The position numbers and the translations under genes are program-made. From an uncultured Campylobacterales bacterium (lineage in GTDB: Bacteria > Campylobacterota > Campylobacteria > Campylobacterales > CACVAW01), in contig CACVAW010000004.1 of NCBI GenBank assembly GCA_902727925.1, positions 1 to 48,126 of the forward strand: DNA of 48,126 nt. Direction: 5' to 3'. The notes beneath the pieces are model-generated. The model saw only the letters and a program-made list of their open reading frames with translations, did not search any database and was not told where the DNA came from. Below, in pieces: positions 21,488 through 47,915 of the stretch. Within the stretch, counting starts at the first letter, position 1, and each line of letters opens with the position of its first letter.

Positions 21488-21561
21488 AAAAGGCACTAGT
21501 GCCGCGAGCAGTGCGCTGAGCACAGCGAAGAAGGATTTATTCCTTCGAGCGTATAAAAAGG
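21488..21561 (+). repeat. three-hairpin structured intergenic repeat, copy A (tRNA-Phe/rnpB intergene)
   Basis: Hairpin 1 GGCA-CTAG-TGCC (21492-21503); hairpin 2 GCAGTGC-GCTGA-GCACAGC (21508-21526); hairpin 3 GAAGGA-TTTAT-TCCTTC; ends 'GCGTATAAAAAGG'. Same architecture as copies B-F. Confidence 0.8.
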
Positions 21562-21880
21562 TATAGCTGTAAGCTGGATTCTGTATTTGACGATTATTTA
21601 TCTATGTCAGTATCTTACGATAAGACTTATGCGAAAAGCTAAAATATAAAACATTAACCAAACTTTTCTTGCTGCAGATTGGGTTTACATAACAACCTAT
21701 ATTACTATAGGCTTTGGTGAGCTTTTACCTCGCCGTTTCACCTGTATATCATAAATGATATAGTTTACTTTCTGTTGCACTGTCCCTTGGGTTACCCCAG
21801 CCATCTGTTAGATGGAATCTTGTTTTATAGCAGCCCAGACTTTCCTCTTCTTAAAAGAAGCAATCATCTACTATACCTTC
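21555..21880 (-). ncRNA. rnpB: RNase P RNA (bacterial class A-like)
   Basis: Minus strand: 'GAGGAAAGTCTGGGCTGC' near the 5' end, '...ACAGAATCCAGCTTACAG' near the 3' end, internal 'GGTGAAACGGCGAGGTAAAAGCTCACC'; P1 GGTATAG (5') pairs with CTATACC (3'). Exact ends approximate. Confidence 0.93.
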
Positions 21881-21929
21881 GAAGTGTATCAAGAGGAATC
21901 AAATCCCTCTTGACTATTTTGTTTATAAG

Positions 21930-21955
21930 ACTTTATTTAAAAGTTTAAATAAAGT
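21930..21955 (-). terminator. terminator-like hairpin downstream of rplT
   Basis: 'actttatttaa aagt ttaaataaagt', an 11-bp inverted repeat immediately 3' of rplT. Confidence 0.6.
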
Positions 21956-21958
21956 TAT

Positions 21959-22309
21959 TTAGATTTTTGCTTTTACTGAATCAATTACTGCTTTAAAAGC
22001 ACTTGCATCGTTCATTGCCATATCAGCAAGTATTTTTCTATCTAATTCTATATTTGCTAGTTTAAGCCCATGTATGAATTTTGAATAACTTATTTCGTTT
22101 AGTCTACAAGCAGCATTTATTCTAGTGATCCAAAGTCTTCTGAAATCTCTTTTCTTTTGCTTTCTATCTCTGTATGCGTATACTAAACTTCTTTCTACTT
22201 GCTCTTTAGCTTTTCTAAAGTGTTTTCTTCTACCACTAAAGAAACCTCTAGCTAGTTTTAGCATTTTTTTATGTCTTCTTCTTCTAACAATACCTGTTTT
22301 TACTCTCAT
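21959..22309 (-). CDS. rplT: 50S ribosomal protein L20
   Basis: 116 aa; '[38 protein letters not shown]'. Confidence 0.98.
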
Positions 22310-22403
22310 ATTTTTCCTTCTTAACCTCTTGAGGTGTCTATTTAGAACTTTTCCTATTAAATAGGGGGATTAATACTATTATTTTTTAGTACAACTATTT
22401 GGA

Positions 22404-22598
22404 TTAAGCTTTACAAAGCATCTTTTTTACAGCTTTCATATTTGTAGCTGATACATATTGTGGTGCTCTTAATCCTCTTTTTCTCTTTTGATCTTTTTTA
22501 GTAAGTATATGACTTCTAAAAGCAGATCCTCTTTTTATTTTGTTTTTTGAAGCTTTGAATCTCTTTGCAGCTCCTCTAACGCTCTTCATTTTGGGCAT
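22404..22598 (-). CDS. rpmI: 50S ribosomal protein L35
   Basis: 64 aa; '[15 protein letters not shown]...[23 protein letters not shown]'. Confidence 0.97.
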
Positions 22599-22674
22599 AG
22601 ATGTCCTTTTGAATACTTTCTAATTTCACTTATTCTAAAACTAGAGGCGATATTATATATAAAAGTGATTAAAT

Positions 22675-23550
22675 TTAGAGTGATTCTTCACTCTTTAGAC
22701 TAAAGGTTGTATCTTTGAAGTCAAAGTCAAGTTGTTTTGCATGAAGCATTAGTCTATTCGCACCCAGATATTTAATCTTATCTTCATTAGTGAGTTTATT
22801 ATCCAAGTACTTATCAGATATCTCAAAACTCACTCCATACAGTGGATCACCTACTATTCTATGTCCTATACTGTTTAGATGTACTCTTATTTGATGCATC
22901 CTACCTGTCTTTGGTTTGGCGTAGATTTTAGTAGTATTTGATAGCTTATCATACTTTATGGGTGATATATCGGTAATTGCTACCCTACCATACTTGTGAA
23001 CTATTACTTTTTCTTTTGAGTTTATATCACTGTTCTTTTTGAGTGGTTTATTTATAGTAATTTTCTCTTTTATTTCGCCTTCTACAACTACTTCATAAGT
23101 TTTTTGAATAGTTCTTTCTTCAAATAGCTCTTTTATTTCTTGTTCGTATTTTTTGGCTTTAGAAACAAGGACTAATCCACTTGTGGCGAAATCTATTCTA
23201 TGAGCAAGACAAGCTTCTTTGCCTAAGTAATATTTTATTTCGTCAAGTAATGAGTACTCTGTGAATATATTTTTAGGATGAACAAGTAAATCATTGGGCT
23301 TCTCAAACAGTGCAAAATATTTATTTTCATATATTGGCTTAAGACCTCTTGTAACTCCTTTGAATACTACTATAGTTATATCTCCAGATATAATCTGTGA
23401 TGGCTTTGTAATATACTCATCATTTTCATAAAACCGTGATTTGGCTATTAGTCTTTGTGCAGTTTTGGGAGTGTAGTGCAAATACCTCATAAGAAATATT
23501 TGCGCACGGATAGGAGTATGTACAAAATATCTTTGTTTTATAAAAGGCAT
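22675..23550 (-). CDS. RluA/RluD-family pseudouridine synthase
   Basis: 291 aa; 'CLAHRIDFATSGLVLVSK' (HRLD-type catalytic motif) and 'GRMHQIRVHLNSIGHRIVGDPLYG'. Confidence 0.95.
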   Translation of the reverse strand: MPFIKQRYFVHTPIRAQIFLMRYLHYTPKTAQRLIAKSRFYENDEYITKPSQIISGDITIVVFKGVTRGLKPIYENKYFALFEKPNDLLVHPKNIFTEYSLLDEIKYYLGKEACLAHRIDFATSGLVLVSKAKKYEQEIKELFEERTIQKTYEVVVEGEIKEKITINKPLKKNSDINSKEKVIVHKYGRVAITDISPIKYDKLSNTTKIYAKPKTGRMHQIRVHLNSIGHRIVGDPLYGVSFEISDKYLDNKLTNEDKIKYLGANRLMLHAKQLDFDFKDTTFSLKSEESL

Positions 23551-23556
23551 ATAGTC

Positions 23557-24087
23557 TTAAGAATTAGCTAGTCTTTTTTCAATATCAGCTTTAGCCATAC
23601 CCACAAGACCTCCGCCAAGAAGAATATTAAGGTCAGTCTCTTTGATATCAAAGTTATAAGTTTTGTTTTTTGTATGGTTTATTACTTTTTGTTCTTTTAA
23701 TTGAAGTTCAAGCTCATCGTCGTAATCAAATCCACTTATATCTTCAAGTGCAACACAAACAAATCCATTAAGTACTGAGTTTCTATAGAATATATCAGGG
23801 TATGCTTCGCCTGAAGTCTTGTTAATCTCAGTAATCATAAACTTCACATTATTAAACTGCAATGCATAAACAGCTTGTTCACGTGAACTACCACAACCAA
23901 AGTTGCTTCCAGCAATTACAATATTTGCTTCACTTGTATTACATCTATTGACAAATTCTTCATCAAATTTTTCAAAAGCAAACTGAGCAAACTTATCTTT
24001 TTCCCAATGTTCTTGGAGTACATCAGCTCTTATTATATCGTCGGTATTTATGTTTGGTGGGAATATTGTTGTTATCTTGCCTCTCAT
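23557..24087 (-). CDS. leuD: 3-isopropylmalate dehydratase small subunit
   Basis: 176 aa; 'PPNINTDDIIRADVL', 'VIAGSNFGCGSSREQAVYAL', 'NSVLNGF'. Confidence 0.9.
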   Translation of the reverse strand: MRGKITTIFPPNINTDDIIRADVLQEHWEKDKFAQFAFEKFDEEFVNRCNTSEANIVIAGSNFGCGSSREQAVYALQFNNVKFMITEINKTSGEAYPDIFYRNSVLNGFVCVALEDISGFDYDDELELQLKEQKVINHTKNKTYNFDIKETDLNILLGGGLVGMAKADIEKRLANS

Positions 24088-24148
24088 TTGTTTAAATCCT
24101 TAATTTACTATCTATATAATTCGTAATCATAGCAAATAAAGGTTATTA

Positions 24149-24550
24149 ATTATAGATACTGAATTTAATAAATGGAATGAAATTAAAAAGTCAACTCAAA
24201 AAGAAAATATAATAGTAGGATTTAAAAATAGAGATATTTTTTATATCAAAATGGGACAAAATATTGGATTTGAACAAAATGGAAAAGGAAAAGATTTTGT
24301 TAGACCTATTATTATATTAAAAAAATTCAATAAATATATGTTTTTTGGTATCCCTCTATCTACAAAGATGAAAGAAGGAAGGTTTTACTATACATTTGAT
24401 TTTATTAAAGCTAATAAAAAAGTAACTAATATTGCACTACTATCCCAAATGAAATTATATAACACAAATAGATTGTTAAATAAAATTGGAGTTATAAACA
24501 AAGAAGATTTCAAAAATTTAGTTGATAGTTTTAAAAATCTTTTAAATTAA
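24149..24550 (+). CDS. PemK/MazF-like toxin; canonical start codon apparently missing
   Basis: Track ORF starts at ATG 24251, but the reading frame is open upstream and encodes '(I)IDTEFNKWNEIKKSTQKENIIVGFKNRDIFYIKMGQNIGFEQNGKGKDFVRPIIILKKF...'. RBS-like AAAGG at 24138-24142 precedes ATT (24149)/ATA (24152). Start uncertain. Confidence 0.65.
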   Translation: MIDTEFNKWNEIKKSTQKENIIVGFKNRDIFYIKMGQNIGFEQNGKGKDFVRPIIILKKFNKYMFFGIPLSTKMKEGRFYYTFDFIKANKKVTNIALLSQMKLYNTNRLLNKIGVINKEDFKNLVDSFKNLLN

Positions 24551-24551
24551 C

Positions 24552-24575
24552 CCCGCCAAAAGACGGGTCGTCCCG
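24552..24575 (+). promoter_or_regulatory. GC-rich overlapping hairpins, possible terminator or attenuator
   Basis: 'cccgccaaaagacgggtcgtcccg': CGGG at 24564-24567 can pair with CCCG 24552-24555 or CCCG 24572-24575 (mutually exclusive); an isolated GC-rich patch. Confidence 0.4.
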
Positions 24576-24630
24576 AAGGATATTTATACCTGTATTATAT
24601 CACAAACAAAACTAAAGGTCAAATCTACAT

Positions 24631-25632
24631 ATGAAAATAGTTATTATTAAAACATCAGCACTTGGTGATATCCTCCATACTTCATTTATACTTCAGTTCA
24701 TAAAATCACACATCCCAAATGCCCATATCTCATGGGTAATTGAATCTAGGTTTGCTGGTATATTATCTAATCACAAAGATATAGATGAACTAATCACTAT
24801 AAATACAAAAAACAAAAGTATAAAAAACATACTAAAAACTATAAAAGACCTAAGAGCTCTTAAAAAGCAGAATAACTACGATATAGCTATAGACTTTCAA
24901 GGATTACTCAAATCTGCAATAACATCTAAAATACTTTGTAAAAATAATAACGGCTATGACAAAAACTCTATAAGAGAAAAAGTAGCTTCATATCTATATA
25001 AAAATAGCTTTGACATCGCATACCATAGTAATACCATAGATAGATATAGAGAATTACTCAATAAGTCTCTTAATATAAATGTTTCAAAAGAAGATGTCTT
25101 AGCTAAGAAAAACTCTTGCTTTTATAGCCAAGAATCAACTAATAGCATAAAACCTTTCTTATCAGATGAGAAAAAAAATATCATATTCATAGTGGGTTCA
25201 ACTTGGGAAAGTAGAATTTATCCAAAAGAAAGGTTTTTAAATATTGCTAAAAATCTTGAAAATACTAATATATTAGTACCATATGGAAATACCGAAGAAA
25301 AAAAATTTGGAGAGTATTTACAAAGAAACAGTCATAATGTAAAAGTACTACCAAAGCTATCTCTTGATAAACTCAAAGCTATTATTTCAAGTGCTGACTT
25401 GTTAATAGGTAACGATACAGGTCCTAGCTATATTGCATGGGCTAATAATATTCCTAGTATAACTATCTTTGGTCCTACTCCAGCTTCTAGGATATATGAG
25501 AGTAATATTCATAAACTAATAAAATCAAGCTCTATAGTAGACCACTATAACCTTAATAAAAATGATTTTTCTATTAATGAAATTAGTGAAGATAAAATAA
25601 TAAAAATTGCACAAGAACTGCTAAATCAATAA
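24631..25632 (+). CDS. waaC: lipopolysaccharide heptosyltransferase I
   Basis: 333 aa; 'MKIVIIKTSALGDILHTSFILQFIK', 'FIVGSTWESRIYPKERF', 'LLIGNDTGPSYIAWANNIPSITIFGPTPASR' (GT9 family). Confidence 0.93.
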   Translation: MKIVIIKTSALGDILHTSFILQFIKSHIPNAHISWVIESRFAGILSNHKDIDELITINTKNKSIKNILKTIKDLRALKKQNNYDIAIDFQGLLKSAITSKILCKNNNGYDKNSIREKVASYLYKNSFDIAYHSNTIDRYRELLNKSLNINVSKEDVLAKKNSCFYSQESTNSIKPFLSDEKKNIIFIVGSTWESRIYPKERFLNIAKNLENTNILVPYGNTEEKKFGEYLQRNSHNVKVLPKLSLDKLKAIISSADLLIGNDTGPSYIAWANNIPSITIFGPTPASRIYESNIHKLIKSSSIVDHYNLNKNDFSINEISEDKIIKIAQELLNQ

Positions 25633-25685
25633 TTAAAGGATTTTATGGTATTTTATAAGGAAATACATTACGAGGAGATACCTAT

Positions 25686-27122
25686 TTGAGACTATTATAT
25701 GACTTTAAAAAACAGGGTACGAGAACAAATTTAAAACTTTCCCATATCGGTGGATTTTTGATGTTAAGTGAGAGACAAAACTTAGATTCATTTTTCCAGT
25801 GGCAACGAAATTCTTTGGTATATAGCTCATTTTTAAGACACTATCCAATAATTTTTACAAAAAGTACTATACATTCGAATAAATATTTAAGTACACATAA
25901 AGATGTCAATTCTAAAATCAAAAAAATATCTAAGTTCATAGATATAAAACTACCAAGTGTAAAAACACCCATAACAATAAAATGTAAAATCGAAAATAAT
26001 GAAATACAAAAAGTAATCTTTGATAAAGAGCAAAAACACTTATTTGATAACAACACTATTTATACGAACCAAGTATCACCTATGGCAGAAATAATTTTTG
26101 ATAAAATCCTAGAAGCAAATAAAAATACTATTATAAATAGGTATCAATATAAATTTGCGTCAAAATTAGCAGTTGAGTTTAACAACAAAGTTAATTATGT
26201 AAATTTAATTCAAAATAGCCATAAATATGACTTACCATATCATACACCTACAATAATAGTATCTTTTGAAAAACTACAAAAATTAGACTGGACAAAACTA
26301 AAAAATCTTTTTGAGACTAAGACTTCAGTTCTAGCTAATACTTTCTACGTAAAACTAGCTATTAACTCAGGTGGCGAAATCAATGTAATGATGAATGAAG
26401 AAAACTTCAAAAGAAAATTAAATATTTTAATAGATGGTACATTAAAAGCAAATATCCAAGATGCAAACTTCTTAATACAAAAAAAAGTGAACTTTAATAA
26501 GAATGAAGAGTTAACACACCTAGGGTTTATATACTACATAAAAAATCCCAAAAATATAAAAAGAATAGATATTCATGCTCAAATATACTCTGATGTTAAT
26601 CAAACTACTTTTTTAGGAAGTTATATATCTAAGAAATTAGAAAATAAAGTACTATCACTAATAGATGAAGAAAAGATAATAAACCTATGTAAAATATTTG
26701 CTAAGGCTGGATACGAAGGTCCTATTAATTTTGACGCTATTATCAATGATAAAGAACAGTTAGAATTCATCTATGACTGTAATCCTAGAATGACTGGAAC
26801 ACTGCCAAGTATTGCTATATATGATTACTTCAAGAAGAAACACGATATCAATATAGATGTAATAGTTCCTATTGGGTATAGGGGCAATTTATATTATCCA
26901 GATATTGATGCAAAATTAGAAGAACTAGACTCAAAAAACTTACTTTTTACTAAAAAAAATAATAAAGGTGTACTATTAATTCCAAGTTTTGTAAGAAGTG
27001 ATTCTTATGATATGTGGTTTATAAATATGGGTAAAACAGAGATAAAAGCATTTGCAAAAGAAGGACTTGTTGAGTCCTTCTCAATTAAAGAAAAGAATTT
27101 TCATACTGGTATCTATTTTTAG
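25686..27122 (+). CDS. ATP-grasp-like protein of unknown function
   Basis: 478 aa, TTG start with GGAG upstream; C-terminal 'GYEGPINFDAIINDKEQLEFIYDCNPRMTGTLPSIAIYDYF' resembles the ATP-grasp metal-binding/catalytic region. Confidence 0.6.
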   Translation: MRLLYDFKKQGTRTNLKLSHIGGFLMLSERQNLDSFFQWQRNSLVYSSFLRHYPIIFTKSTIHSNKYLSTHKDVNSKIKKISKFIDIKLPSVKTPITIKCKIENNEIQKVIFDKEQKHLFDNNTIYTNQVSPMAEIIFDKILEANKNTIINRYQYKFASKLAVEFNNKVNYVNLIQNSHKYDLPYHTPTIIVSFEKLQKLDWTKLKNLFETKTSVLANTFYVKLAINSGGEINVMMNEENFKRKLNILIDGTLKANIQDANFLIQKKVNFNKNEELTHLGFIYYIKNPKNIKRIDIHAQIYSDVNQTTFLGSYISKKLENKVLSLIDEEKIINLCKIFAKAGYEGPINFDAIINDKEQLEFIYDCNPRMTGTLPSIAIYDYFKKKHDINIDVIVPIGYRGNLYYPDIDAKLEELDSKNLLFTKKNNKGVLLIPSFVRSDSYDMWFINMGKTEIKAFAKEGLVESFSIKEKNFHTGIYF

Positions 27123-27958
27123 ATTTCTTCTAAAGATAGATCAAAGTTGTTTGATATTTTAATTATATGGTTATCTGGTACTTTATTCCAGTTACTAGTC
27201 ACTTCATTAAGTTTTTCGGATACCACCAAAATAGATTTTGATTCCCCAAGAATACTAAATATATTATTTATAAATGAGAACTTACCCATTTTAGAATAAT
27301 AAAGACTAAGTGGTTCTCCACCATTGTTAGAGTATCTTGAAGCAACTACAAATTTTCCATCACTTATATTTACGTTTATATTAGCAGGCTCTTTCTCCCC
27401 TATTTCTTCTAATAGCGTATTTATTACTTCTATAGTTTTTTTTATTGCCTTTGCTACATTTTCTTCATCATATTTATCATACTTATGTAAAAAGTCTAGG
27501 AACAGAGCAAAAAAATGTTCACTATCTGTTGAACCTTTTATCCAGTTATAAGACTCATCGATTAAAAAAGATCTTAGTTTTCTTTTGATTTTATGAAAGC
27601 TTGGAATATTTCCATTATGCATCATAAGCAAGTTTTTATAGATAAAAGGATGTGTATTTGATCTACTTATATGACCGACACTTGCATCTCTAATATGTGC
27701 AGAAAAACAATTACTTGAAATCTTTGAAAGAATCGACTGTATATTTCTGTCATTCCAAGCAGGTCTTATAGTTAAATAAAGTCCTGGCTCAGCACTAATA
27801 CTATCATCATACCAACCTACTCCAAAACCATCTCCATTTGTAGGTATTAATCTCTCTTTTGATCTTTGACTTTGTACAACTAAAGAATTTGTAGGACGCG
27901 AAATCAAGTCCCATAATACTTCTTTATTATGACCTTTGTAGCACATAAATCTACACAT
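27119..27958 (-). CDS. class II glutamine amidotransferase (YafJ/EgtC-like)
   Basis: 279 aa; 'MCRFMCYKGHNKEVLWDLISRPTNSLVVQS', 'GDGFGVGWY', 'AHIRDASVGHISRSNTHPF', 'MMHNGNIPSF'. Confidence 0.92.
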   Translation of the reverse strand: MCRFMCYKGHNKEVLWDLISRPTNSLVVQSQRSKERLIPTNGDGFGVGWYDDSISAEPGLYLTIRPAWNDRNIQSILSKISSNCFSAHIRDASVGHISRSNTHPFIYKNLLMMHNGNIPSFHKIKRKLRSFLIDESYNWIKGSTDSEHFFALFLDFLHKYDKYDEENVAKAIKKTIEVINTLLEEIGEKEPANINVNISDGKFVVASRYSNNGGEPLSLYYSKMGKFSFINNIFSILGESKSILVVSEKLNEVTSNWNKVPDNHIIKISNNFDLSLEEI

Positions 27959-28328
27959 TAATTATTCCTTTTAGGTATGATGAATGATGTTGGACAATAA
28001 GCCAATTATTGTCTATTTTTTTATATACATATGTATATCTTGCTTTTATTTCAATTTTTTGTTTATTTGTAAATTTATACACACCTGAATTAATAGCTAT
28101 ATCCCCATGGTTTTGTATGTTATAAGTTTCCAAAACAACAGTATAGTTTTTCATCAAAAATGGTTTAAAATAATTTCTTTTTGTTTCAGGATTTGGACAT
28201 ACGTCGAAACTAAAAGTGGGTAATAATACAGAATCTTTTGCATATAACGAAATCATATCGTCTAAATTTTGAGTGGAAAGTGCGTTACTCCATTTATCAA
28301 AAAGTCCTAATATCTCTTCTTCATTCAT
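27951..28328 (-). CDS. SnoaL/DUF4440-like (SgcJ/EcaC-type) NTF2-fold protein
   Basis: 125 aa; 'ILGLFDKWSNALSTQNLDDMISLYAKDSVLLPTFS...YTYVYKKIDNNWLIVQHHSS'. Confidence 0.85.
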   Translation of the reverse strand: MNEEEILGLFDKWSNALSTQNLDDMISLYAKDSVLLPTFSFDVCPNPETKRNYFKPFLMKNYTVVLETYNIQNHGDIAINSGVYKFTNKQKIEIKARYTYVYKKIDNNWLIVQHHSSYLKGIINV

Positions 28329-28710
28329 TGTTTTTCCTATATATATAGTTTTCTAAAATCACTTTGGCACTAAGACTATCTATCTTACCATCTCTAGTAT
28401 TTCTAAATACACCTTTAGCTAACTCTTTTGCATCACGACTAGAAAAATCTTCATCTTGAAATTCAACACTTTTAAAGTCAAGTAACCCAGTAAAATGGTT
28501 TATTCTATTTTCCGTATCTGGTGAGTTTGTAGGAAGACCAATTATAAGCTTATCTATATTCCACTCTTTTAATATACTTAACACATCATTTGCTGCTTGA
28601 TTTCTATTACGTCTTAGCACTGGATTTTGAGGTAATACAAGTGAGTTATCAAAGCAAAAAGCAAGACCTATTCTTTTAAGACCCACATCAATACAGGCTA
28701 GTTTTTCCAA
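28321..28710 (-). CDS. ruvX: YqgF/RuvX-family pre-16S rRNA nuclease / Holliday junction resolvase-like
   Basis: 129 aa; 'LACIDVGLKRIGLAF', 'KLIIGLPTNSPDTENRINHF', 'DEDFSSRDAKEL'. Confidence 0.9.
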   Translation of the reverse strand: MEKLACIDVGLKRIGLAFCFDNSLVLPQNPVLRRNRNQAANDVLSILKEWNIDKLIIGLPTNSPDTENRINHFTGLLDFKSVEFQDEDFSSRDAKELAKGVFRNTRDGKIDSLSAKVILENYIYRKNNE

Positions 28711-28712
28711 GA

Positions 28713-30065
28713 CTATCTACTTTTTGCTTTTGATATGATATCGTTTAAAGATTCTTCATAAAACTTCAAATCTTTTTCATTTGTACTTTCAAACCTTGTT
28801 ACAAGTACTGGTGTCGTATTACTAGCACGAACTAGCGCCCAACCATTTTCAAAAACAACTCTTAATCCATCAACTTTTATAATATCTTTAATGTCAAGAG
28901 TATTTTCTTTTAGTTCTAATTCAATTTTATCCATAAGTGAAAACTTCTCTTCTTCTGTTGTTTTTACTTTAATTTCTTCAGTATTATAAATAAGTGGTAA
29001 TTTAGCTATTTGTTGGTCTAAGTCTATTTTTTTATACAATAATTCTAAAACCTTCATAGTTGCATATAAAGCATCATCAAAACCATAGTTTTCTTTAAAG
29101 AATATATGACCACTCACTTCAGCTGCAAGATCTGCGCCTGTTTCTTTCATTTTTACTTTTAAGTTACTATGACCTGTTTTGTACATTATTGATTTGCCAA
29201 CTTTATCTATTTCATCGTACATTACTAATGAACACTTCACTTCACCTATAACAGTAGGATTCTTTATTTGTGAGCTATAAAGGACTGCTAAGATATCGCC
29301 TTTGATATTATTTTTTTGTGTTAGTACTGCTATTCTATCAGCATCTCCATCATAAGCAAATGCTACATCATAACCTTTGCTTAATTCATCTTTAACATCT
29401 ATTAGGTTTTCCTCTACACTAGGATCTGGATGATGATTAGGGAAAGTTCCATCTGGAGTTTCATACATAGCTTTGTAATTAAGATTAAGTCTATCAAATA
29501 TATCAAGTATTGCTGTTCCAGCTACACCATTACCACAATCAATAACTATTTTTGTATCTAGGTTTTTCAAATATGAAAACTTATCTACTATATAATCAAT
29601 ATATTTTGACTTCATATCTACTGAAGTATAATTTATATTATCTAAAATCTCTATGTGTGTGTTATCTACTATTTTGTCACCTAAAGCATATATGTCATCA
29701 CCAAAAAAAGGTAGCTTATTTATAGTGATTTTAAAGCCATTATATTCAGGAGGATTATGTGAACCTGTAATCATAACAGACCCACCAACCTTGTATCCAA
29801 AGTCTATGAAGTTTGCAAAATAATTTGTGGGAGTTGCCACCATACCTATATTAATGACTTTTACGTTTGCTTTATTAAACCCACTACAAAGATACTCAAA
29901 GAGCTTTGGTGAGTGGGTTCTTGCATCATATCCAATAACTACATATTCACCATGTTTTTTTACTTCTTGACCAAGATAATAACCAATAAGTTTAACACTA
30001 GTTTCGTTTAACTCTTTTTCGTAAATTCCTCTTATATCATATTCTCTAAATATTGTTTTTGTCAT
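28713..30065 (-). CDS. phosphomannomutase/phosphoglucomutase
   Basis: 450 aa; 'FREYDIRGIYEKELN', 'VMITGSHNPPEYNGFK', 'AFAYDGDADRIAVL', 'GEVSGHIFF'-like 'AEVSGHIFF'. Confidence 0.95.
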   Translation of the reverse strand: MTKTIFREYDIRGIYEKELNETSVKLIGYYLGQEVKKHGEYVVIGYDARTHSPKLFEYLCSGFNKANVKVINIGMVATPTNYFANFIDFGYKVGGSVMITGSHNPPEYNGFKITINKLPFFGDDIYALGDKIVDNTHIEILDNINYTSVDMKSKYIDYIVDKFSYLKNLDTKIVIDCGNGVAGTAILDIFDRLNLNYKAMYETPDGTFPNHHPDPSVEENLIDVKDELSKGYDVAFAYDGDADRIAVLTQKNNIKGDILAVLYSSQIKNPTVIGEVKCSLVMYDEIDKVGKSIMYKTGHSNLKVKMKETGADLAAEVSGHIFFKENYGFDDALYATMKVLELLYKKIDLDQQIAKLPLIYNTEEIKVKTTEEEKFSLMDKIELELKENTLDIKDIIKVDGLRVVFENGWALVRASNTTPVLVTRFESTNEKDLKFYEESLNDIISKAKSR

Positions 30066-30072
30066 AAATTTC

Positions 30073-30771: not shown

Positions 30772-30777
30772 TTATAT

Positions 30778-36501: not shown

Positions 36502-36583
36502 TTTCCTTTTTTATATGTTTGAGAAAATAAATTCCTCTTCACAGTCTTGAGCAGACAGTTCAAAGCACTGGTGCTTTTATTAC
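36502..36583 (-). repeat. three-hairpin structured intergenic repeat, copy D (rplY leader)
   Basis: Minus strand: AAAGCA-CCAG-TGCTTT (36562-36577), ACTGTCT-GCTCA-AGACTGT (36541-36559), GAGGAA-TTTAT-TTTCTC (36521-36537), then 'CATATAAAAAAGGAAAAATATCGTG'. Confidence 0.72.
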
Positions 36584-36986: not shown

Positions 36987-37011
36987 AAATATTCAAACAA
37001 TCAAAATCAAA

Positions 37012-37181: not shown

Positions 37182-37212
37182 AGTATTCATAAAACTTAAC
37201 TTTATGAATACT
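37182..37212 (-). terminator. terminator-like hairpin after porB
   Basis: agtattcataaa / tttatgaatact 12-bp inverted repeat with T-rich sequence on the minus strand afterwards ('TTTGTTTTTAAA'). Confidence 0.7.
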
Positions 37213-37238
37213 TGCTTCTTATTTAGAGCAACAAATAC

Positions 37239-39421: not shown

Positions 39422-39430
39422 TGTTTGTAT

Positions 39431-39511
39431 TCCTTTTTATACGCTTTTTGGAAATGAATTCCAAAAAGCTGCCCTCAGCGGACAGCTTACGGTGCTAGCA
39501 CCTTTTATTCG
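39431..39511 (-). repeat. three-hairpin structured intergenic repeat, copy B (porA leader)
   Basis: Minus strand: GGTG-CTAG-CACC (39491-39502), GCTGTCC-GCTGA-GGGCAGC (39468-39486), CTTTTTGGAA..TTCCAAAAAG (39444-39468), then 'CGTATAAAAAGGAATACAAACAATG'. Confidence 0.85.
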
Positions 39512-39540
39512 TTAGTATTTTTTAATTTTTCATTCTGTAT

Positions 39541-39568
39541 TAGTTAAAGTCTAAAAAGACTTTAACTA
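39541..39568 (-). terminator. intercistronic stem-loop between porD and porA
   Basis: tagttaaagtc-taaaaa-gactttaacta, 11-bp perfect stem; no strong U-tract on the minus strand, so it may be a processing or stability hairpin rather than a terminator. Confidence 0.5.
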
Positions 39569-39583
39569 TAGTTTACTTTTGAA

Positions 39584-39985
39584 CTATGCTTTTTTTTCTT
39601 TTTTCTTTTTTTCTGGCCATGATGCTAATGCTGAATCTTCAACTGTAGCTTCTTCGTACATTATTAGTGATTTTGGATTTGTAGGACAAACGTCTGCACA
39701 TATACCACATCCTTTACAATGATCATAATCAATACCTTGCATCTTCTTTTCTTCTGAAAGAATTGCACTATCTGGACAATACACCCAACAGTTTTGACAA
39801 TGAATACAAACATCACTATTATAAATAGGCTTAACAACTCTCCAAGAAGCTGTACTTGCGCTAAATGAACTAAAAAGCGAATAATCTCTATCCGATTGTG
39901 CTGTATTTACTAAATCTTGCATGCTATTTTCAAACGGATTTAAAAGTGCTGCGTCATTGACTTCATCCCAACCTACATTTGCCAT
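39584..39985 (-). CDS. porD: pyruvate:ferredoxin oxidoreductase delta subunit (2[4Fe-4S])
   Basis: 133 aa; 'CIHCQNCWVYCPDSAI', 'CKGCGICADVCPTNPKSL'. Confidence 0.93.
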   Translation of the reverse strand: MANVGWDEVNDAALLNPFENSMQDLVNTAQSDRDYSLFSSFSASTASWRVVKPIYNSDVCIHCQNCWVYCPDSAILSEEKKMQGIDYDHCKGCGICADVCPTNPKSLIMYEEATVEDSALASWPEKKKKEKKA

Positions 39986-39991
39986 TAAATA

Positions 39992-40074
39992 TCTCCTTTT
40001 TATACACTTTAAGGAAGTGAATTCCTTAAAGCTGTCCTCATCGGACTGCTCAAACGACTAGTCGTTTTATACGT
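39992..40074 (-). repeat. three-hairpin structured intergenic repeat, copy C (porD leader)
   Basis: Minus strand: AAACGA-CTAG-TCGTTT (40052-40067), GCAGTCC-GATGA-GGACAGC (40031-40049), CTTTAAGGAA-TTCAC-TTCCTTAAAG (40007-40031), then 'TGTATAAAAAGGAGATATTTAATG'. Confidence 0.85.
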
Positions 40075-40114
40075 TATTAATCAATATATTTCTAATTTAT
40101 ATAACTTTTTTACC

Positions 40115-40672
40115 TTAAACTACTTCTTCGTATGCTCTTTGAATTGCTTTTAAATTTGCGTCTACAATCTTTTGTGGGAATTTAGACAAAACTTTAATTA
40201 TCGCATTTTTAAAATAATCTATCTCAAACATACCAGAAACTTTCATCAAAGCCCCTAGCATAGGAGTATTTGGAATAGCTCTACCTATAGTTTCTTGAGA
40301 AATTTTCATACAATCAAGAGTATATACTCTTTTTTCATCTAAATTTGGTAATTTTTCTAATAACTCTTTTTTACTTAAATGAGTTGTAATTATATATTTT
40401 GTATCTTCTTTTTCATTTGCTGTAATATTACCAATGAATGCCAAAGCAGGATCAAGTACCAATACATAATCAGGTATCATAAACTTTTCATGATTAAGTA
40501 TAGGTTTATCATCTATTCTATTATAAGCACTCATAGCAGCACCTCTTTTAGCAGATCCATAAAAAGCAAAGGCTTGAACTTGCTTACCAGTATCAGATAC
40601 TATATCACCCAGACCTTTAGCTCCAGTTACGGCACCTTGACCGGCACGAGAATGCCATCTAATTTCTAACAT
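40115..40672 (-). CDS. porC: pyruvate:ferredoxin oxidoreductase gamma subunit
   Basis: 185 aa; 'MLEIRWHSRAGQGAVTGAKGLGDIV', 'FAFYGSAKRGAAMSAYNRI'. Confidence 0.94.
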   Translation of the reverse strand: MLEIRWHSRAGQGAVTGAKGLGDIVSDTGKQVQAFAFYGSAKRGAAMSAYNRIDDKPILNHEKFMIPDYVLVLDPALAFIGNITANEKEDTKYIITTHLSKKELLEKLPNLDEKRVYTLDCMKISQETIGRAIPNTPMLGALMKVSGMFEIDYFKNAIIKVLSKFPQKIVDANLKAIQRAYEEVV

Positions 40673-40761
40673 AAAGTCTCCTTAGGACACAAAAATTTCC
40701 ATATTATAACAAATAAGTTTATGTTTTTTTCTTTATTTATATAACTTATATTAATAAATAT

Positions 40762-41379
40762 TTAGAGACCTAAATATTTTTCTTTAATAATTTCTCTCAT
40801 AGCTTTAAATATTAGATATTTATCAACCAAGATATCTTCAAAATACTCTTTTAATATGTTAGCATCTCCACCAGTAAGGTATATTTTCTTTTTACCTAAA
40901 CTTTTAATTAATAAGACTATAGATTTTATTACTCCACAGCTAAGAGCTTCATCTGTATTTTGAGGTATAATATCAATATTAGTAGGTTTTAATTTGGTTT
41001 GAAGTTTATTTGATACTGTCAAAAAGCTTTTTTGATAAGCAGTTAATCCTGGCAGTATATATCCACCCTTATGCTCACCCTTATCCATTAAGTCTATAGT
41101 GATAGCACTTCCAGCATCAACTATAATACCATCTTCAAGATAATTACAAAGAACTTGTCTATCAATCCCAAGTCCTTTATATTTAGTCTTGATATTAATA
41201 TAAGGAGACAAATTTATTGCATTCAAATTTTTTTCAAAAATAGAATCTAAAGATGAGTTTACATTAACATAAAAGAATTTTTCATCAGGGAAGTTCAGTT
41301 TTTCTGATACTTCCTCAGTACGTAATATATTAAAGTCATAAAACTTTATATTTGTATTTCCACAGTCACAAAGTATCAA
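40762..41379 (-). CDS. coaX: type III pantothenate kinase
   Basis: 205 aa; 'MILCDCGNTNIKFY', 'GLGIDRQVLC', 'DGIIVDAGSAITIDLMDKGEHKGGYILPGL'. Confidence 0.93.
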   Translation of the reverse strand: MILCDCGNTNIKFYDFNILRTEEVSEKLNFPDEKFFYVNVNSSLDSIFEKNLNAINLSPYINIKTKYKGLGIDRQVLCNYLEDGIIVDAGSAITIDLMDKGEHKGGYILPGLTAYQKSFLTVSNKLQTKLKPTNIDIIPQNTDEALSCGVIKSIVLLIKSLGKKKIYLTGGDANILKEYFEDILVDKYLIFKAMREIIKEKYLGL

Positions 41380-41384
41380 ACAAA

Positions 41385-42332
41385 CTACTTAAATAAAAAT
41401 GATTTATCTTCCACATAAAGAGTATCGTTAGAAAAGAAACTTTTACCTTCTATCTCACCAAAAAGTTTCATAGTTTTATTATTATCGTAATCTATTAAAA
41501 ATCCTGATTTCTCCAAGATATATAATTTATTATTTACCATAGATGCATTAATGAAATTTGCAAATTCATATTTTTTCTCATATATTTTTTTTAAGTTATC
41601 ATTTAACTCGACAATTCTTGAATCTCTTGTTAGAATATAAGTTTTATTTAGTGTTGATATCACTTTTTTTACTTCATCACTGTATTCACTTATGTAGTTT
41701 TGATTTAGTGCAATTACTTTGTGTCTTGAAGCAACAATTATTTTATCATTTACTAATTCTAAATGAATAATATTGTTAAAAAAGTCCTCATTTGATAAAG
41801 ATATTTGATTTTTAATTTGTCTGTTTCTACTATCCAAAAACACTATTTCTCCATTAAGTGTTGGATAAATGACAATACTGCCCAAGAATAATGGTTTTGG
41901 TATATCTTTTGTACCACTAATAGCTTCTTTATACGACTCTTTAAATAATCGTTTTTTATTTTGTATACTATACAAAGTTATTGAATTATCTACAAATAGT
42001 ACTGCTAGTTTATCTTCTTTGACACTAAGACTAATGATTTTAGTGTCAAAGTTAAATGCACTAATCGTAGTATTCTTATCTTTTATAGCAATACTTTTAA
42101 AGTCTCTTGTAAGGACTTGTAAGTCACCATCAGCAAATATTAATTTCTCGTCTTCTTCTATATTATATTTTTTATTTTTAGTTAGAGCAAAACCGTCAAA
42201 CGTAGCACTTTGCAAATCAGTGTAAAGAACTTCTAAAAAACCTATACTAGATATTTTGTCATCAACTATAGGATTAAAAGATTGTTTACAGCCAATAAGC
42301 AGTAATGCAAATAAAAATACAATATTTTTCAT
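41385..42332 (-). CDS. putative lipoprotein, beta-propeller-like
   Basis: 315 aa; lipobox-like 'FALLLIGCKQ' and repeated propeller-like segments. Confidence 0.65.
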   Translation of the reverse strand: MKNIVFLFALLLIGCKQSFNPIVDDKISSIGFLEVLYTDLQSATFDGFALTKNKKYNIEEDEKLIFADGDLQVLTRDFKSIAIKDKNTTISAFNFDTKIISLSVKEDKLAVLFVDNSITLYSIQNKKRLFKESYKEAISGTKDIPKPLFLGSIVIYPTLNGEIVFLDSRNRQIKNQISLSNEDFFNNIIHLELVNDKIIVASRHKVIALNQNYISEYSDEVKKVISTLNKTYILTRDSRIVELNDNLKKIYEKKYEFANFINASMVNNKLYILEKSGFLIDYDNNKTMKLFGEIEGKSFFSNDTLYVEDKSFLFK

Positions 42333-42337
42333 AAATA

Positions 42338-42928
42338 CTACTTGTAGTGCTTAAGCATATTTGTATACTCACTCAGAGTCGAATCAAAACCAAAACTTTC
42401 AAGTTTTCTTTTTGCTTTTTCGATTTCACCTGATTTAAGAAGCAATACTACTTCATTCAGTCTTGCATATTCAGGAAAAATCTTTCCGTCTTTTGTATAT
42501 TTATTTATTTTCTTGTCGTCACCTGAAGATAATGCTACATAAAATGAACTAAGATCTTTAATTACTTTATTAGAAGAATTACTAGCAAGATTTGAAAGTG
42601 TTGCTATATCATTATTTTTCATTGCATTTTGATACAAATAAAGACTATAAAGAGATTTATTATTATTTTTAAAAACTTCAACATCAGCAGTAGAATTTGC
42701 ATCATTTAATAAATTCAAGTAAGCTACATTTGCTTTTTCTAGTTTAGCTTTACTCATATAGTCATTTATCAAATACCCAGCAACTCCAACAACTATTAAT
42801 ATAAGTATTGCAAAAAGATACTTTCTATATTTTCTAAAAATCCTCTCACCTCTAATAAATCCTTCTAAAAATTGCTCTTCAGTTGAGATTCCTTTTTTAA
42901 TTGCATTTAAGTTTTCTTTTATTGACAT
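42338..42928 (-). CDS. membrane-anchored hypothetical protein (YfgM/TPR-like)
   Basis: 196 aa; one TM near the N-terminus followed by a helical repeat-like domain. Confidence 0.65.
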   Translation of the reverse strand: MSIKENLNAIKKGISTEEQFLEGFIRGERIFRKYRKYLFAILILIVVGVAGYLINDYMSKAKLEKANVAYLNLLNDANSTADVEVFKNNNKSLYSLYLYQNAMKNNDIATLSNLASNSSNKVIKDLSSFYVALSSGDDKKINKYTKDGKIFPEYARLNEVVLLLKSGEIEKAKRKLESFGFDSTLSEYTNMLKHYK

Positions 42929-42968
42929 TTATAATCCTAAGTTTTTTATTACGCAGTATGATATCAAA

Positions 42969-43766
42969 TCAAATTAAAACATCAATCTCTTCTTGCGTGA
43001 ATCCTGACTTTAATCTAGCACTTACATTAACATAAGGCTTTTTTTTCTTTGCACCTGGCAAAACAGTCTCAACTATATCAAAATAGCTTTTAGGGTCAAT
43101 CCCCTTTTGTTCACAAAAGTACTTAAACCAAAAGTCACCCTTTTTTACATGTGAAACTTCCTCTTTCAATATAATCTCTATACTTTGCTTTAGCTCTTTT
43201 GCAAATTCATCATTTATATTTCCAAGCTTTGCAATCACTTTTGGACTAGAATCAAGTCCTGAGGCTTCAAGATATCTTGGGACTACTGCTATTCTTGAAA
43301 CAATATCCAGACACCTCATCGATGTTTCAAACAAAAATGAATGAACATCAAAAGAGCCGTATGTATATCCATACTTAACAAGAAGTTTTTCTAGTGATAA
43401 GAAATGTCTTATCTCATCATTTGCCACATCAATCCAATCATCATAAAACTCTTTTGGCTGATTTTTGAATCTATAAGCTGTATCAAGAGCTAAGTCTATA
43501 GCTGAGTATTCTATGTGAGCTACTGAATGACATAAGTAAGCTTTACCTTCAATTGAACCTAATTTTGATCTTTTAGAAAGTTTTTTAGCATGTACCACAT
43601 TAAGATGTTCACTATAAGAAGGTGAACTAAATACTACACTCTCTTGATTATGCTTAAAAGTAGTTTTGTTAGTTTTATAACACTCAAAGAATTCATTAAA
43701 TTTAGCTATTTTAATCTCAGGTTTGACTGATGTTAAAATAGCTTCTAAAGATGAAAAAAACTCCAC
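42969..43766 (-). CDS. DUF455 ferritin-like domain protein
   Basis: 265 aa; 'HSVAHIEYSAIDLALDTAYRF', 'DDWIDVANDEIRHFLSLEKLL', 'ILKEEVSHVKKGDFWFKYFCEQKG' metal-binding E/H motifs. Confidence 0.88.
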   Translation of the reverse strand: MEFFSSLEAILTSVKPEIKIAKFNEFFECYKTNKTTFKHNQESVVFSSPSYSEHLNVVHAKKLSKRSKLGSIEGKAYLCHSVAHIEYSAIDLALDTAYRFKNQPKEFYDDWIDVANDEIRHFLSLEKLLVKYGYTYGSFDVHSFLFETSMRCLDIVSRIAVVPRYLEASGLDSSPKVIAKLGNINDEFAKELKQSIEIILKEEVSHVKKGDFWFKYFCEQKGIDPKSYFDIVETVLPGAKKKKPYVNVSARLKSGFTQEEIDVLI

Positions 43767-43769
43767 TTA

Positions 43770-44036
43770 TTAATCTATACTTGTCACTATCATCATTCCA
43801 GATGTATAACTATACCCATACCCATATCTTTTTGCTGAGCTATATCCACTTGAGCCTGAAGTTATCGGTATAACATCAATTATGTTATACCCCTTAGAAA
43901 TAAGCTCATTACAAGTATCTTCTACCTTTTTAGCTAACTCTTCTCCATCAACTTTATCAGTAGGCTTAGCACCTGAAATTAAACTTTTTTTTACCTGTTT
44001 ATTAGAGTCAATAAAAAATGTTTTAATCTCTTTCAT
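43770..44036 (-). CDS. conserved hypothetical protein
   Basis: 88 aa; tightly packed with dapD (adjoining start/stop); Gly/Tyr/Ser-rich C-terminus 'SGSSGYSSAKRYGYGYSYTSG'. Confidence 0.6.
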   Translation of the reverse strand: MKEIKTFFIDSNKQVKKSLISGAKPTDKVDGEELAKKVEDTCNELISKGYNIIDVIPITSGSSGYSSAKRYGYGYSYTSGMMIVTSID

Positions 44037-45214
44037 TAATGAAGCTCACTATTTAATTTTACTTCTTTAGTACTTCTTCTTGCTATTATTTGACCTGTTT
44101 GAGAATTTTGTCTAAAATGTATACCATTTAATCCAGATATATCAAGACCTTTTACTATCTCTTTATATTCATTGATATCTTTGTTTACTTCTTTGATTTT
44201 GTTATATTCATCCTGTGAAAGATATATCTTTGTACCCTCAAGTAAAGACAATCCAGCATCAATAATACAACCACTTCCTAGAGGTATACCTGTAACTGAG
44301 TTTGCACCAAGAAGAGTGTTCTCTCCTATTGTTATAGGGTTTCCATTAGTACCACTAAGCACTCCAAGTATACTTGCACCACCACCAACATCTGCACCTG
44401 CTTTTACTACAGCTGAACTACTTATTCGTCCCTCAACCATTACAGCTCCAGTTGTCCCTGCATTGAAGTTAATATAGCTAGCTCCTGGCATTACAGTAGT
44501 CCCTGCCGCAAGGGCAGCTCCAAATCTTACTCTTGATGTATCTAGTACTCTTGTATTATCAGCTGGAATTATATGTTGTAAGAATCTTGGAAACTTATCT
44601 ACAAAATCAATACTAGGATATTCCCCTCTAAGCTTTAGCTCTATCTCTTCAACTCTAAGCCATTCAAGATCGATTGGATAATTACCACTCCAAGCAACAT
44701 TTTGAAGTAACCCAAAAGCACCATCAAGATTAAGACTTCTTAATTCTGCTTTATTCTGTGACAAGGCATAAAGTTTTAAATATACACTCTCTACACTTTT
44801 TGGTTTTTCATTTTCGAATATAAATACTATTTTATAATCATCACAAAGCTCGTATTTTTCTTTATATAAGCCCTGAAGTATTTTGAACAAATCAATATTA
44901 CTATGACCCTCTTCTCCCTCAAATGGTTCAAAATACTCTAGCACTTTATTAACTATCTTAAAATTAAGTGCTAATACAACTTCGCTAGCATTAAAGTCTA
45001 TTTTAGTTCCTAATTTTGCAAATGCATCAATTATAACAGCTGCACTACCAAAGTTTTCATCCCAATTAACTAATGGAAATGTAGCTTGAAGTGTTTTATT
45101 CTCATCTATTTGAGATCTATCTACTCTACATACTCCAAACCCTAAAGGCTTTTTATAGTTATTTGAGCTTTGTATCGTTTGTATTGTTTTTTTAAATTCT
45201 TCTTTTGATTTCAT
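44036..45214 (-). CDS. dapD: tetrahydrodipicolinate N-succinyltransferase
   Basis: 392 aa; left-handed beta-helix; 'RVRFGAALAAGTTVMPGASYINFNAGTTGAVMVEGRISSSAVVKAGADVGGGASILG'. Confidence 0.93.
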   Translation of the reverse strand: MKSKEEFKKTIQTIQSSNNYKKPLGFGVCRVDRSQIDENKTLQATFPLVNWDENFGSAAVIIDAFAKLGTKIDFNASEVVLALNFKIVNKVLEYFEPFEGEEGHSNIDLFKILQGLYKEKYELCDDYKIVFIFENEKPKSVESVYLKLYALSQNKAELRSLNLDGAFGLLQNVAWSGNYPIDLEWLRVEEIELKLRGEYPSIDFVDKFPRFLQHIIPADNTRVLDTSRVRFGAALAAGTTVMPGASYINFNAGTTGAVMVEGRISSSAVVKAGADVGGGASILGVLSGTNGNPITIGENTLLGANSVTGIPLGSGCIIDAGLSLLEGTKIYLSQDEYNKIKEVNKDINEYKEIVKGLDISGLNGIHFRQNSQTGQIIARRSTKEVKLNSELH

Positions 45215-45239
45215 TTATATATTTCCTTTAAAGTATTAT

Positions 45240-46544
45240 TTATTTTGACAAGTCATTTTTGAGTATTATTGTTGTTGATTTATTTGCCTTAAGATATTTT
45301 TTTGCTACATCTACGATATCTTTTTTTGTTATTTTTTTGATATCATCTTCATAGTCAAGTATCACACTTACATCACCCTTAGCAAAATACTCTCCATAAA
45401 GATTAACTACACCTGAAGAGCTTTGAATAGAATGAATAAAGTCTAATTTCACATTAATTTTGATTTTTTCTAATTCTTTCTCGTCAAACTTCGCACTCTT
45501 AATGGAATCTAGAATTTTGAGTATCTCTATCTCAGCGTCTTTTGCTTCAACGCCAGTATTACAAACCCCAAGAAGCATAAACACACCAGCACTCTTAGTA
45601 TCCATAGGATATGCATATATCTTAGAGAGTAGTTTCTTCTCATCTATTAACACTCTATTTAATATACTGCTTTTACCACTACTAAGAAGTTCACCTAGCA
45701 TAGAAAGAGCTATCTGATCTTTATGGTTAAACTCAGGTATTTTATATGCAACAGCTACCATCTCTACTTCACTGGACTTATATATTACTGATCTTTTTTC
45801 TTCGTTTTGAGGTATTTCTTTTGTGTGATTTCTTTTGATTTCTACACTATTGTTGATCTTACCAAAATATTTTTGAGTACTTTTAAAAACTTCATCTTTA
45901 TTTATATCACCAGCTACCATTACTATAGCATTACTTGGTTGATAGAATTTCTTATGAAACTCTCTTATGTCCTCTATAGTCCAAGTCTGAATATCACCCA
46001 TGAATCCTATAGGTGTCCAGTGATAAGAGTGATACTCATAAGCCAAATTAAACAGCTTAAAATACAAATAACCTATAGGTGAATTATCAGTTCGCCAACG
46101 TCTCTCTTCAGCTACCACATCTCTTTCACTTTGAAACTCATCATCTTTTAAGTTAAGATTACTCATAAGCTCCGCAAAAAGTTCTAATGACTTGTCCATA
46201 TTTGATGATGAACTCTTGATATAATAATGAGTATAATCAAACCCAGTACTAGCATTATTTACTCCACCAAAACCTTTAACTATTTTGTCAAACTCTCCAG
46301 CTTTTAGATTTTTAGTAGATTTAAAATTCAGATGTTCAAGCATATGAGCGATCCCACTCTTACCCATAATCTCATCACCTGAGCCTACTTGATAAAACAC
46401 ATCTGTAGTTATTACATTTGAGCCTTCATTCATAGGAATGGCTATGACCTTAAGCCCATTTTCTTGTGTCTGTTCATAATACTTTGGTAATACACTACTC
46501 ATCAAAACTCCCATTATCGATATAAATACAAAAATAATCTTCAA
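45240..46544 (-). CDS. M16 family zinc metallopeptidase
   Basis: 434 aa; 'GKSGIAHMLEHLNFKSTKN' (HxxEH) and downstream 'ERDVVAEERRWRTDN'. Confidence 0.95.
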   Translation of the reverse strand: MKIIFVFISIMGVLMSSVLPKYYEQTQENGLKVIAIPMNEGSNVITTDVFYQVGSGDEIMGKSGIAHMLEHLNFKSTKNLKAGEFDKIVKGFGGVNNASTGFDYTHYYIKSSSSNMDKSLELFAELMSNLNLKDDEFQSERDVVAEERRWRTDNSPIGYLYFKLFNLAYEYHSYHWTPIGFMGDIQTWTIEDIREFHKKFYQPSNAIVMVAGDINKDEVFKSTQKYFGKINNSVEIKRNHTKEIPQNEEKRSVIYKSSEVEMVAVAYKIPEFNHKDQIALSMLGELLSSGKSSILNRVLIDEKKLLSKIYAYPMDTKSAGVFMLLGVCNTGVEAKDAEIEILKILDSIKSAKFDEKELEKIKINVKLDFIHSIQSSSGVVNLYGEYFAKGDVSVILDYEDDIKKITKKDIVDVAKKYLKANKSTTIILKNDLSK

Positions 46545-46665
46545 AATATTTCCTAAATTAAATGTTGAAAGTATAACACAATCATATTGATAGAGACCTC
46601 TAAAAACTTGTGCTATAATCCCAACTCAAAAAATTTTAACATTAAAAATGAAATAATCTAAAAAA

Positions 46666-46733
46666 GAGCGACAAGTCGCGAGAGCCCTGCGCTGAGCAGT
46701 TCTTTCTAGGCTTTTGCCTAGAAAGAAGTAAAA
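46666..46733 (+). repeat. three-hairpin structured intergenic repeat, copy E (DHH gene leader)
   Basis: GCGA-CAAG-TCGC (46668-46679), CTGC-GCTGA-GCAG (46687-46699), TTCTTTCTAGGC-TTTT-GCCTAGAAAGAA (46700-46727, 12-bp perfect stem), then 'GTAAAAATG'. Confidence 0.82.
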
Positions 46734-47750
46734 ATGAAACTATACCATTTATCACACATTGATTTAGACGGATATTCTTGTCAATATATCACAAAACAAT
46801 ACTTCAAAGATGCAAAATACTATAATTCAAACTATGGTGATGAGATAGATGAAAAACTAAGACAAATATTCAGAGACATAGAAAAAAATATGTATGAAGA
46901 CAATCTTGTACTAATAACTGATGTAAACCTAACAGGCGCACAAGCAAACAGAGTAGAAGACCTAAAGTCAAATTCATCAAAAAGAGTAGAAATACTTCTT
47001 TTAGATCATCATCAAAGCGGCGAAGCTCAAGCCAATTTATTTGATTGGTATCATCTTGATATTACAAAATGTGCTACAAAAATTACTTATGAATATTTTG
47101 GCAAAATACTTGGCGAAAAACCTGAACTCAAACATTTTGTAGATATTGTCAATAGTATAGATATATGGCTTGATTATGAAGATACATTTGAACTTGGTAA
47201 AGTACTACTAAAACTTTTAGCTGACTCAAACGAAATAAACAGAATAATGTTTCCAGCTGATAATAACAAATATATGTTTAAGCTCCTAGATGCCGTACAA
47301 TCATACTTTGAAAAAGCTGATGCCCATATAGTACTTGATGAAAGCATTCACAAAATAAAAAAACAGATTTTTAATTCTGCTAAAAACGACACACTAGATA
47401 ACCTAATAGCATCTTATATAGTAGACCTACTATCACTCCAAGCAAACAAACTCGAAGTTGTATACAAAGGTCAAAAGGGAGTATTTACATATTCCCTAAG
47501 AGGAGTATCTGTGATAGGTAATATGTTCTTGAAACACAACCCTCAATATGACTTCTTTATGAACCTCTCAGGTGGCAAAAATATAAGCTTTAGAGCCAAC
47601 GACAAACTTGATGTAAGTAAGCTTGCATCCGATGTATTTGGTGGAGGTGGACACAAGAATGCCAGTGGAGCTAGATACAAAGAATTCAAAGATAGCTTCA
47701 TATATCAAAAAATGAGAACCCAAATAAATGAAGTGTTTAGTAAATTTTGA
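46734..47750 (+). CDS. DHH-family phosphoesterase
   Basis: 338 aa; 'HLSHIDLDGYSCQYI', 'LLLDHHQSGE', 'FGGGGHKNASGARY' (DHH/DHHA1). Confidence 0.93.
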   Translation: MKLYHLSHIDLDGYSCQYITKQYFKDAKYYNSNYGDEIDEKLRQIFRDIEKNMYEDNLVLITDVNLTGAQANRVEDLKSNSSKRVEILLLDHHQSGEAQANLFDWYHLDITKCATKITYEYFGKILGEKPELKHFVDIVNSIDIWLDYEDTFELGKVLLKLLADSNEINRIMFPADNNKYMFKLLDAVQSYFEKADAHIVLDESIHKIKKQIFNSAKNDTLDNLIASYIVDLLSLQANKLEVVYKGQKGVFTYSLRGVSVIGNMFLKHNPQYDFFMNLSGGKNISFRANDKLDVSKLASDVFGGGGHKNASGARYKEFKDSFIYQKMRTQINEVFSKF

Positions 47751-47845
47751 TAAAATTTCAAGATTAAAAATAGTTAAAAGTAAATAAAGACAATAATAAC
47801 TTTTTTTGGGTTAAAACCAAAGAAAATGAAAATAACTCAAATCCC

Positions 47846-47915
47846 AGAGCAACAAGTTGCGAGAGCACTGCGCTGAGCAGTTCTTTTCTTGGCTTTTGCC
47901 AAAAAAGAAGTAAAA
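47846..47915 (+). repeat. three-hairpin structured intergenic repeat, copy F (bioB leader)
   Basis: GCAA-CAAG-TTGC (47849-47860), ACTGC-GCTGA-GCAGT (47867-47881), TTCTTTTcTTGGC-TTTT-GCCAAAAAAGAA (47881-47909, one bulge), then 'GTAAAAATG'; close relative of copy E. Confidence 0.82.

Follow-up and report, generated by a model that had tools for sequence, protein, structure and literature searches.

Introduction

Small interspersed repeats are common among bacteria. The BOX elements of Streptococcus pneumoniae, which were judged to be parasitic and non-autonomous, are short, intergenic and modular; they are predicted to form strong RNA structure, are numerous, contain repeated modules and are sometimes co-transcribed with genes (PMC3049150). 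Likewise, the bcr1-bcr18 repeats of the Bacillus cereus group are interspersed, resemble miniature inverted-repeat transposable elements, often lie in untranslated regions or operon gaps, and in some cases have a conserved RNA structure (PMC3446304). Here we describe a family of repeats with similar traits, found as six copies (A to F) in a stretch of 48,126 nucleotides (the window) from an uncultured Campylobacterales bacterium (contig CACVAW010000004.1). It is probably a protein-less, dispersed, non-autonomous mobile repeat of Campylobacterota, whose fold is maintained by compensatory changes and whose sense copies would be kept as mRNA leaders in this genome.

The family differs from BOX elements, with which it was compared by description only, in that the latter are streptococcal, whereas it spans an order, has a covarying H-type pseudoknot and ends in a tail that can hold a Shine-Dalgarno sequence; the bcr repeats belong to another phylum, and their folds were likewise compared from description only. 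Structured repeats within operons that alter the transcript once inserted, such as ERIC and Correia (as cited in PMC3049150), offer a further likeness, again by description and not by sequence. Repetitive extragenic palindromic sequences (REPs) of the GTAG and CGTC kinds are also palindromic and intergenic, and a GTAG followed by a hairpin is present inside many copies of our family; the REPs described are single hairpins of 20-40 bp, in contrast to our family, whose unit has three to four helices, includes a pseudoknot and shows no link to RAYT proteins, and Sulfurovum NBC37-1 is listed with both kinds (PMC3733652). The REPs of that strain were compared by description rather than sequence, and partial overlap with the family is possible. 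By analogy, then, the family resembles BOX, bcr and ERIC-type repeats in being short, structured, intergenic and non-autonomous, and is unusual among them in its covarying pseudoknot and the breadth of its distribution.

To our knowledge, few bacterial interspersed repeats have a fold, pseudoknot included, that is conserved by covariation over 29 genera. The genera concerned include Sulfurovum, Sulfurimonas and Sulfurospirillum, with cultured representatives among them, and the family opens two questions to experiment: what mobilizes repeats of this kind, and by what means one that has landed within an operon becomes harmless or useful.

A covarying fold with a pseudoknot

The element is about 75-105 bases long, has no coding capacity, and consists of a first hairpin (H1), a linker, a second hairpin (H2), a third hairpin (H3) and an A-rich tail. 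Copies from several genomes define a core that reads WAARAG - H1 (4-6 bp, loop C-NN(N)-G) - GNR - RGC - N - H2 (4 bp) - GCYGA loop - H2'. A 3-bp H-type pseudoknot, overlooked in the sequence-only reading of the window, forms where the RGC immediately 5' of H2 pairs with the three 5'-most bases of that hairpin's loop. That reading had instead proposed a mismatched pairing of AGC with GCT below H2 as a conserved feature; this candidate was rejected, because in copies E and F and in copies of the type found in a second Campylobacterales genome (G034) the linker AGC no longer pairs with the GCT 3' of H2, whereas pairing with the loop is kept. Replacements of AGC/GCU seen in other copies include GGC/GCC, AAC/GUU and AUC/GAU, with pairing retained. 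Among 42 distinct cores, 92.9% of the cells in H1, 95.2% in the pseudoknot and 98.8% in H2 are paired, compared to 26-50% in control structures slid along the same cores, and changes on both sides of a pair number 88 against 22 +/- 5 in shuffles. The covariation anticipated once more copies were aligned is thus strong in all three helices.

In many copies and lineages, including one copy of this genome (L025), a mini-hairpin of the form AGY-GNNA-RC follows 3' of H2. The 51 copies that have it are 99.8% paired; both-side changes number 75 where shuffles give 22, and in 15 of the 51 the first pair of the pseudoknot has changed from A-U to G-C. An H1-H2 core was located 5' of the mini-hairpin in 19 of 29 cases by a strict script and in most of the remainder by eye; since nearly all mini-hairpin copies are preceded by the core, the mini-hairpin belongs to the unit. 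H3, with 6-15 bp, is variable in sequence (94 distinct stems), and the tail is GTATAAAAA in this genome and part of the other lineages and TGAGAATTAATCA in G034-like lineages. In the stems G-T (26) outnumbers A-C (6), which indicates that folding takes place on the strand annotated here.

Several structural variants were also observed. Two copies (L026 1501-1619 and L029 1501-1618) form a subfamily with an additional hairpin (AAACCTTATRC...GYATAAGGAAGTT) between H2 and H3, and two others, lying 5' of a peptidyl-prolyl isomerase gene and of hslV (L024 1501-1619 and L028 1061-1217), carry long hairpin-forming insertions in H3 or H2. Several copies (G034/G049, L042, L033, L050, L060, L070) are enclosed by a longer inverted repeat, AATTGAACCCTCTGATTAA...TTAATCAGAGGGTTCAATT, which varies in sequence while its pairing is mostly kept; this flanking repeat is seen only in some copies of G034 and G049, and no autonomous element sharing it was found.

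Distribution and mobility

A covariance model built from the alignment of A to F (R1) gave 26 matches at E<=0.004 in the whole genome (1.5 Mb, 69 contigs), which together with two weak matches judged by eye to belong amount to about 28 copies. The expectation of further copies was therefore borne out, with about 20 beyond A to F at that threshold. R1 also matched 11 of 60 Campylobacterales genomes, with 64 places in G034, while a model of the core (R2) matched 130 of 399 Campylobacterales genomes, which represent 29 of 87 genera; many of these genomes have at least 16 candidates each. A pattern scan of named genomes returned at least 117 stretches; of those listed, 115 come from Campylobacterota (Sulfurovum, Sulfurimonas, Sulfuricurvum, Sulfurospirillum, Nitratifractor and metagenome-assembled genomes) and two are chance matches. 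No matches were found in viral contigs or phages, and the plasmids contributed a single partial match, in Sulfurovum mangrovi; phages, viral contigs and plasmids were accordingly rejected as carriers.

A scan of the window against Rfam 15 gave nothing above the gathering threshold over the elements and no ribozyme or riboswitch match, in agreement with the earlier impression that no known RNA family has this layout, and for copies B, C, E and F at a relaxed E-value the best match over an element reached 17 bits, which is chance level. Literature searches by sequence, with four core sequences, and by topic retrieved no earlier description, and on these comparisons the family looks undescribed.

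Of the two options raised from the sequence, a mobile repeat and a cis-regulatory element, the former is supported by lineage-specific insertion, arrays, a target duplication paired with an empty site, and mixed orientation in other genomes. In the gap between nifS and nifU, 3 of 30 species of one genus have a full copy and one has a 5'-truncated remnant, while most have a gap of 20-50 bp without a copy. Other species (L243, L244, L255) have an unrelated insert, GACACGCCAGTGTCAAGC...AAAAGGGACGAGTTCCTTTTGC, at the same place, suggesting that this gap is an insertion hot spot. In Sulfurovum sp. SulCav_GS09_5 (G361) a copy is situated where pelG, identified by eye, overlaps the gene after it, and is flanked on both sides by the 30 bp TTAGACTATGAAACATTTATGTTGCGGTAA, whereas a relative (G223) has the plain gene overlap and no copy; owing to this duplication both pelG and the next gene are intact. 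More generally, flanking repeats of at least 10 bp accompany 21 of 186 copies, some of them tandem arrays, against about 3 when the flanks are re-paired, and the target duplications vary in length from 8 to 30 bp. Exact head-to-tail arrays occur with periods of 96 and 75, and in this genome three tandem copies (L005, L016, L018; contig C43, 12454-12747) precede pdxJ, with GCTTTATGTCAATAAAAC-like sequence between them and the first bases of pdxJ (ATGTCAATAAAAC) repeated from copy to copy. Judged from these sequence patterns, the family is mobile now or was so recently.

The six copies of the window

The six segments share one architecture, as had been claimed: the H1 hairpins are all present at the positions and with the sequences given for them (chance expectation 0.00-0.01 matches per motif), and each copy scores 80-90 bits with R1, which was trained on them, compared to at most 13 bits for the next match in the window. 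Their positions and parts are as follows.

21487-21563, + strand: copy A, covariance model match
21492-21503, + strand: H1 of copy A, GGCA-CTAG-TGCC
21507-21509 with 21515-21517, + strand: pseudoknot of copy A, AGC paired with loop GCT
21511-21523, + strand: H2 of copy A
21530-21546, + strand: H3 of copy A, then the tail GTATAAAAA
21554-21879, - strand: rnpB (RNase P RNA class A; Rfam scan, 231 bits), context outside the element
36504-36580, - strand: copy D, 5' of rplY (ribosomal L25), which has a GTG start
39430-39507, - strand: copy B, 5' of porA; tail AAAAAGGA, 9 nt to the ATG
39993-40070, - strand: copy C, 5' of a porD-like ferredoxin gene
46663-46738, + strand: copy E, 5' of a DHH-type gene; AAAAATGAAA on either side, a candidate target duplication
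47844-47920, + strand: copy F, 5' of the bioB start; ACTCAAAT on either side, a candidate target duplication

Five of the copies thus stand in sense before rplY, porA, the porD-like gene, the DHH-type gene and bioB, as described before, and the exception is copy A, which converges with rnpB, the two sharing 10 nt at the rnpB 3' end. The DHH-type protein scores slightly below the Pfam cut-off, and the BioB-like start was identified by eye (CGEDCKFCTQS).

Origin of the repeat

An alternative to mobility is that the element is a host cis-regulatory RNA (a leader, attenuator or riboswitch-like structure) that responds to some signal and governs the gene 3' of each copy. The conservation of pseudoknot and loops with covariation over 29 genera would fit such a role, as would the presence of a copy before rplL and nifU in more than one family and the orientation of the copies in this genome, where 21 of the 22 that could be placed share the direction of the gene that follows; in named genomes the figure is 54 of 93 (Fisher p=0.0008). 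However, the genes downstream are functionally unrelated, copy A converges with rnpB, exact tandem arrays exist, and the nifU copy is missing from most relatives in the genus examined. Moreover, sense placement 5' of a gene is inconsistent across species, since about 40% of the copies elsewhere are antisense to or convergent with the next gene and some are divergent. As a general explanation cis-regulation is therefore not supported, and we consider it unlikely. Antisense and convergent copies, arrays and empty sites cannot be explained by a host cis function, so that selection on the fold is most simply understood as selection for the element's own spread.

Two other explanations accept mobility and name the machinery. 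According to one, in line with the REPIN-like option raised from the sequence, the element is a REP or REPIN, a palindromic unit moved by a Y1 RAYT, the GTAG before H3 in mini-hairpin copies being the REP tag. Many copies do have GTAG and a hairpin, both repeat kinds are reported for Sulfurovum NBC37-1 (PMC3733652), and Y1 proteins are encoded in many element-rich genomes. On the other hand, GTAG is missing from the common type of this genome and from the G034 type, the unit is larger than a REP and has a conserved pseudoknot, no Y1 protein was detected in six element-bearing genomes, and none of the Y1/RAYT genes examined is flanked by a copy. Y1 transposition is, besides, not expected to yield a target duplication of 30 bp such as that in G361, and we regard membership in this class as quite unlikely. 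A retroelement similar to SINEs, whose RNA would be reverse transcribed and inserted by target priming with a reverse transcriptase of the host or of a group II intron, could account for the RNA-like fold, the target duplications of variable length, the head-to-tail arrays and the 5'-truncated remnant; it is very unlikely nonetheless, as no reverse transcriptase turned up in roughly half of the element-rich genomes, there is no defined poly-A, and one copy with a long duplication (L199) is truncated at its 3' end. The broader proposal of an order-wide, pseudoknotted, small SINE-like RNA that is turned back into DNA in trans, frequently at translation starts, leaving long target duplications of variable length, and whose ribosome-binding tail spares the genes, seems to us rather improbable as well.

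RAYT, reverse transcriptase and TnpB were each rejected as mobiliser on account of their inconsistent presence across element-bearing genomes. A relic of a TnpB/IscB guide RNA (omega RNA) was also rejected, given that a TnpB domain is present in just one of 17 element-bearing genomes and that the Rfam scan of the window gave no match to HEARO. No autonomous parent with an internal open reading frame was found among copies without a detected H3, most of which are detection failures or decayed copies.

The preferred reading, a non-autonomous mobile repeat, supposes that the fold is recognized, as RNA or as single-stranded DNA, by machinery acting in trans. Some observations weigh against it. Only one insertion combines an extended target duplication with an empty site in a relative, the remaining duplications being short or within arrays, and where different species have a copy at the same gene, as at nifU, rplK and rplL, these could be old conserved leaders rather than repeated insertions. 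The excess of G-T over A-C fixes the strand and cannot tell RNA from folded DNA, and the sense bias comes from 22 placed copies of one genome with crude calling of open reading frames.

Placement at translation starts

In this genome, where the neighbours of copies were named from their N-termini, the genes 3' of copies include rplL, rpsG, atpD, recA, fabG, argB, thrC, trpS, slyD, nifU, pdxJ, porA, porD, rplY, hslV and a peptidyl-prolyl isomerase gene. A structured RNA before central genes such as rplL, rpsG, atpD, porA, recA and nifU is likely to affect translation or mRNA processing. The tail ends 6-9 nt from the start codon in many copies, and in Sulfurimonas a module GGTTCCCTT-AAATTTATGAAATAAATT-AAAGGA often stands between the element and the start codon, among others at nifU and rplL. 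The idea that the repeat brings its own ribosome-binding site accordingly holds for sense copies of this genome and for the Sulfurimonas variant, which contain or adjoin a Shine-Dalgarno tail, and does not extend to the whole family.

We hypothesize that sense copies within operons, both here and in the Sulfurimonas composite, serve as the leader of the next cistron, and that the unpaired A-rich tail, by holding or abutting the Shine-Dalgarno sequence, would allow downstream translation to survive the insertion. Judging from position, this role would be secondary, in-operon insertions persisting where translation of the next gene is preserved.

Copies E and F had been described as ending in AAGAAGTAAAAATGA, which is indeed present but is not element tail throughout. 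AAAAATGAAA and ACTCAAAT recur upstream of the respective copies, so that the ATG-bearing end is probably in part a duplicated host target. The 3' arm of H3 in these copies contains AGAAAGAAG/AAAAGAAG (46720-46729 in E and 47900-47910 in F), likely a Shine-Dalgarno sequence buried in the stem, and this arrangement is a candidate temperature- or ribosome-sensitive switch.

A second repeated module was noticed in Sulfurimonas, composed of a hairpin AGGGAA...GGTTCCCTT followed by AAATTTATGAAATAAATTAAAGGA and a start codon (L036 1501-1650; L113 ~7579-7720; L230, L234, L243, L255, L267, L277). It occurs with and without the main element before nifU, rplL and other genes, and looks like a portable translation-start module.

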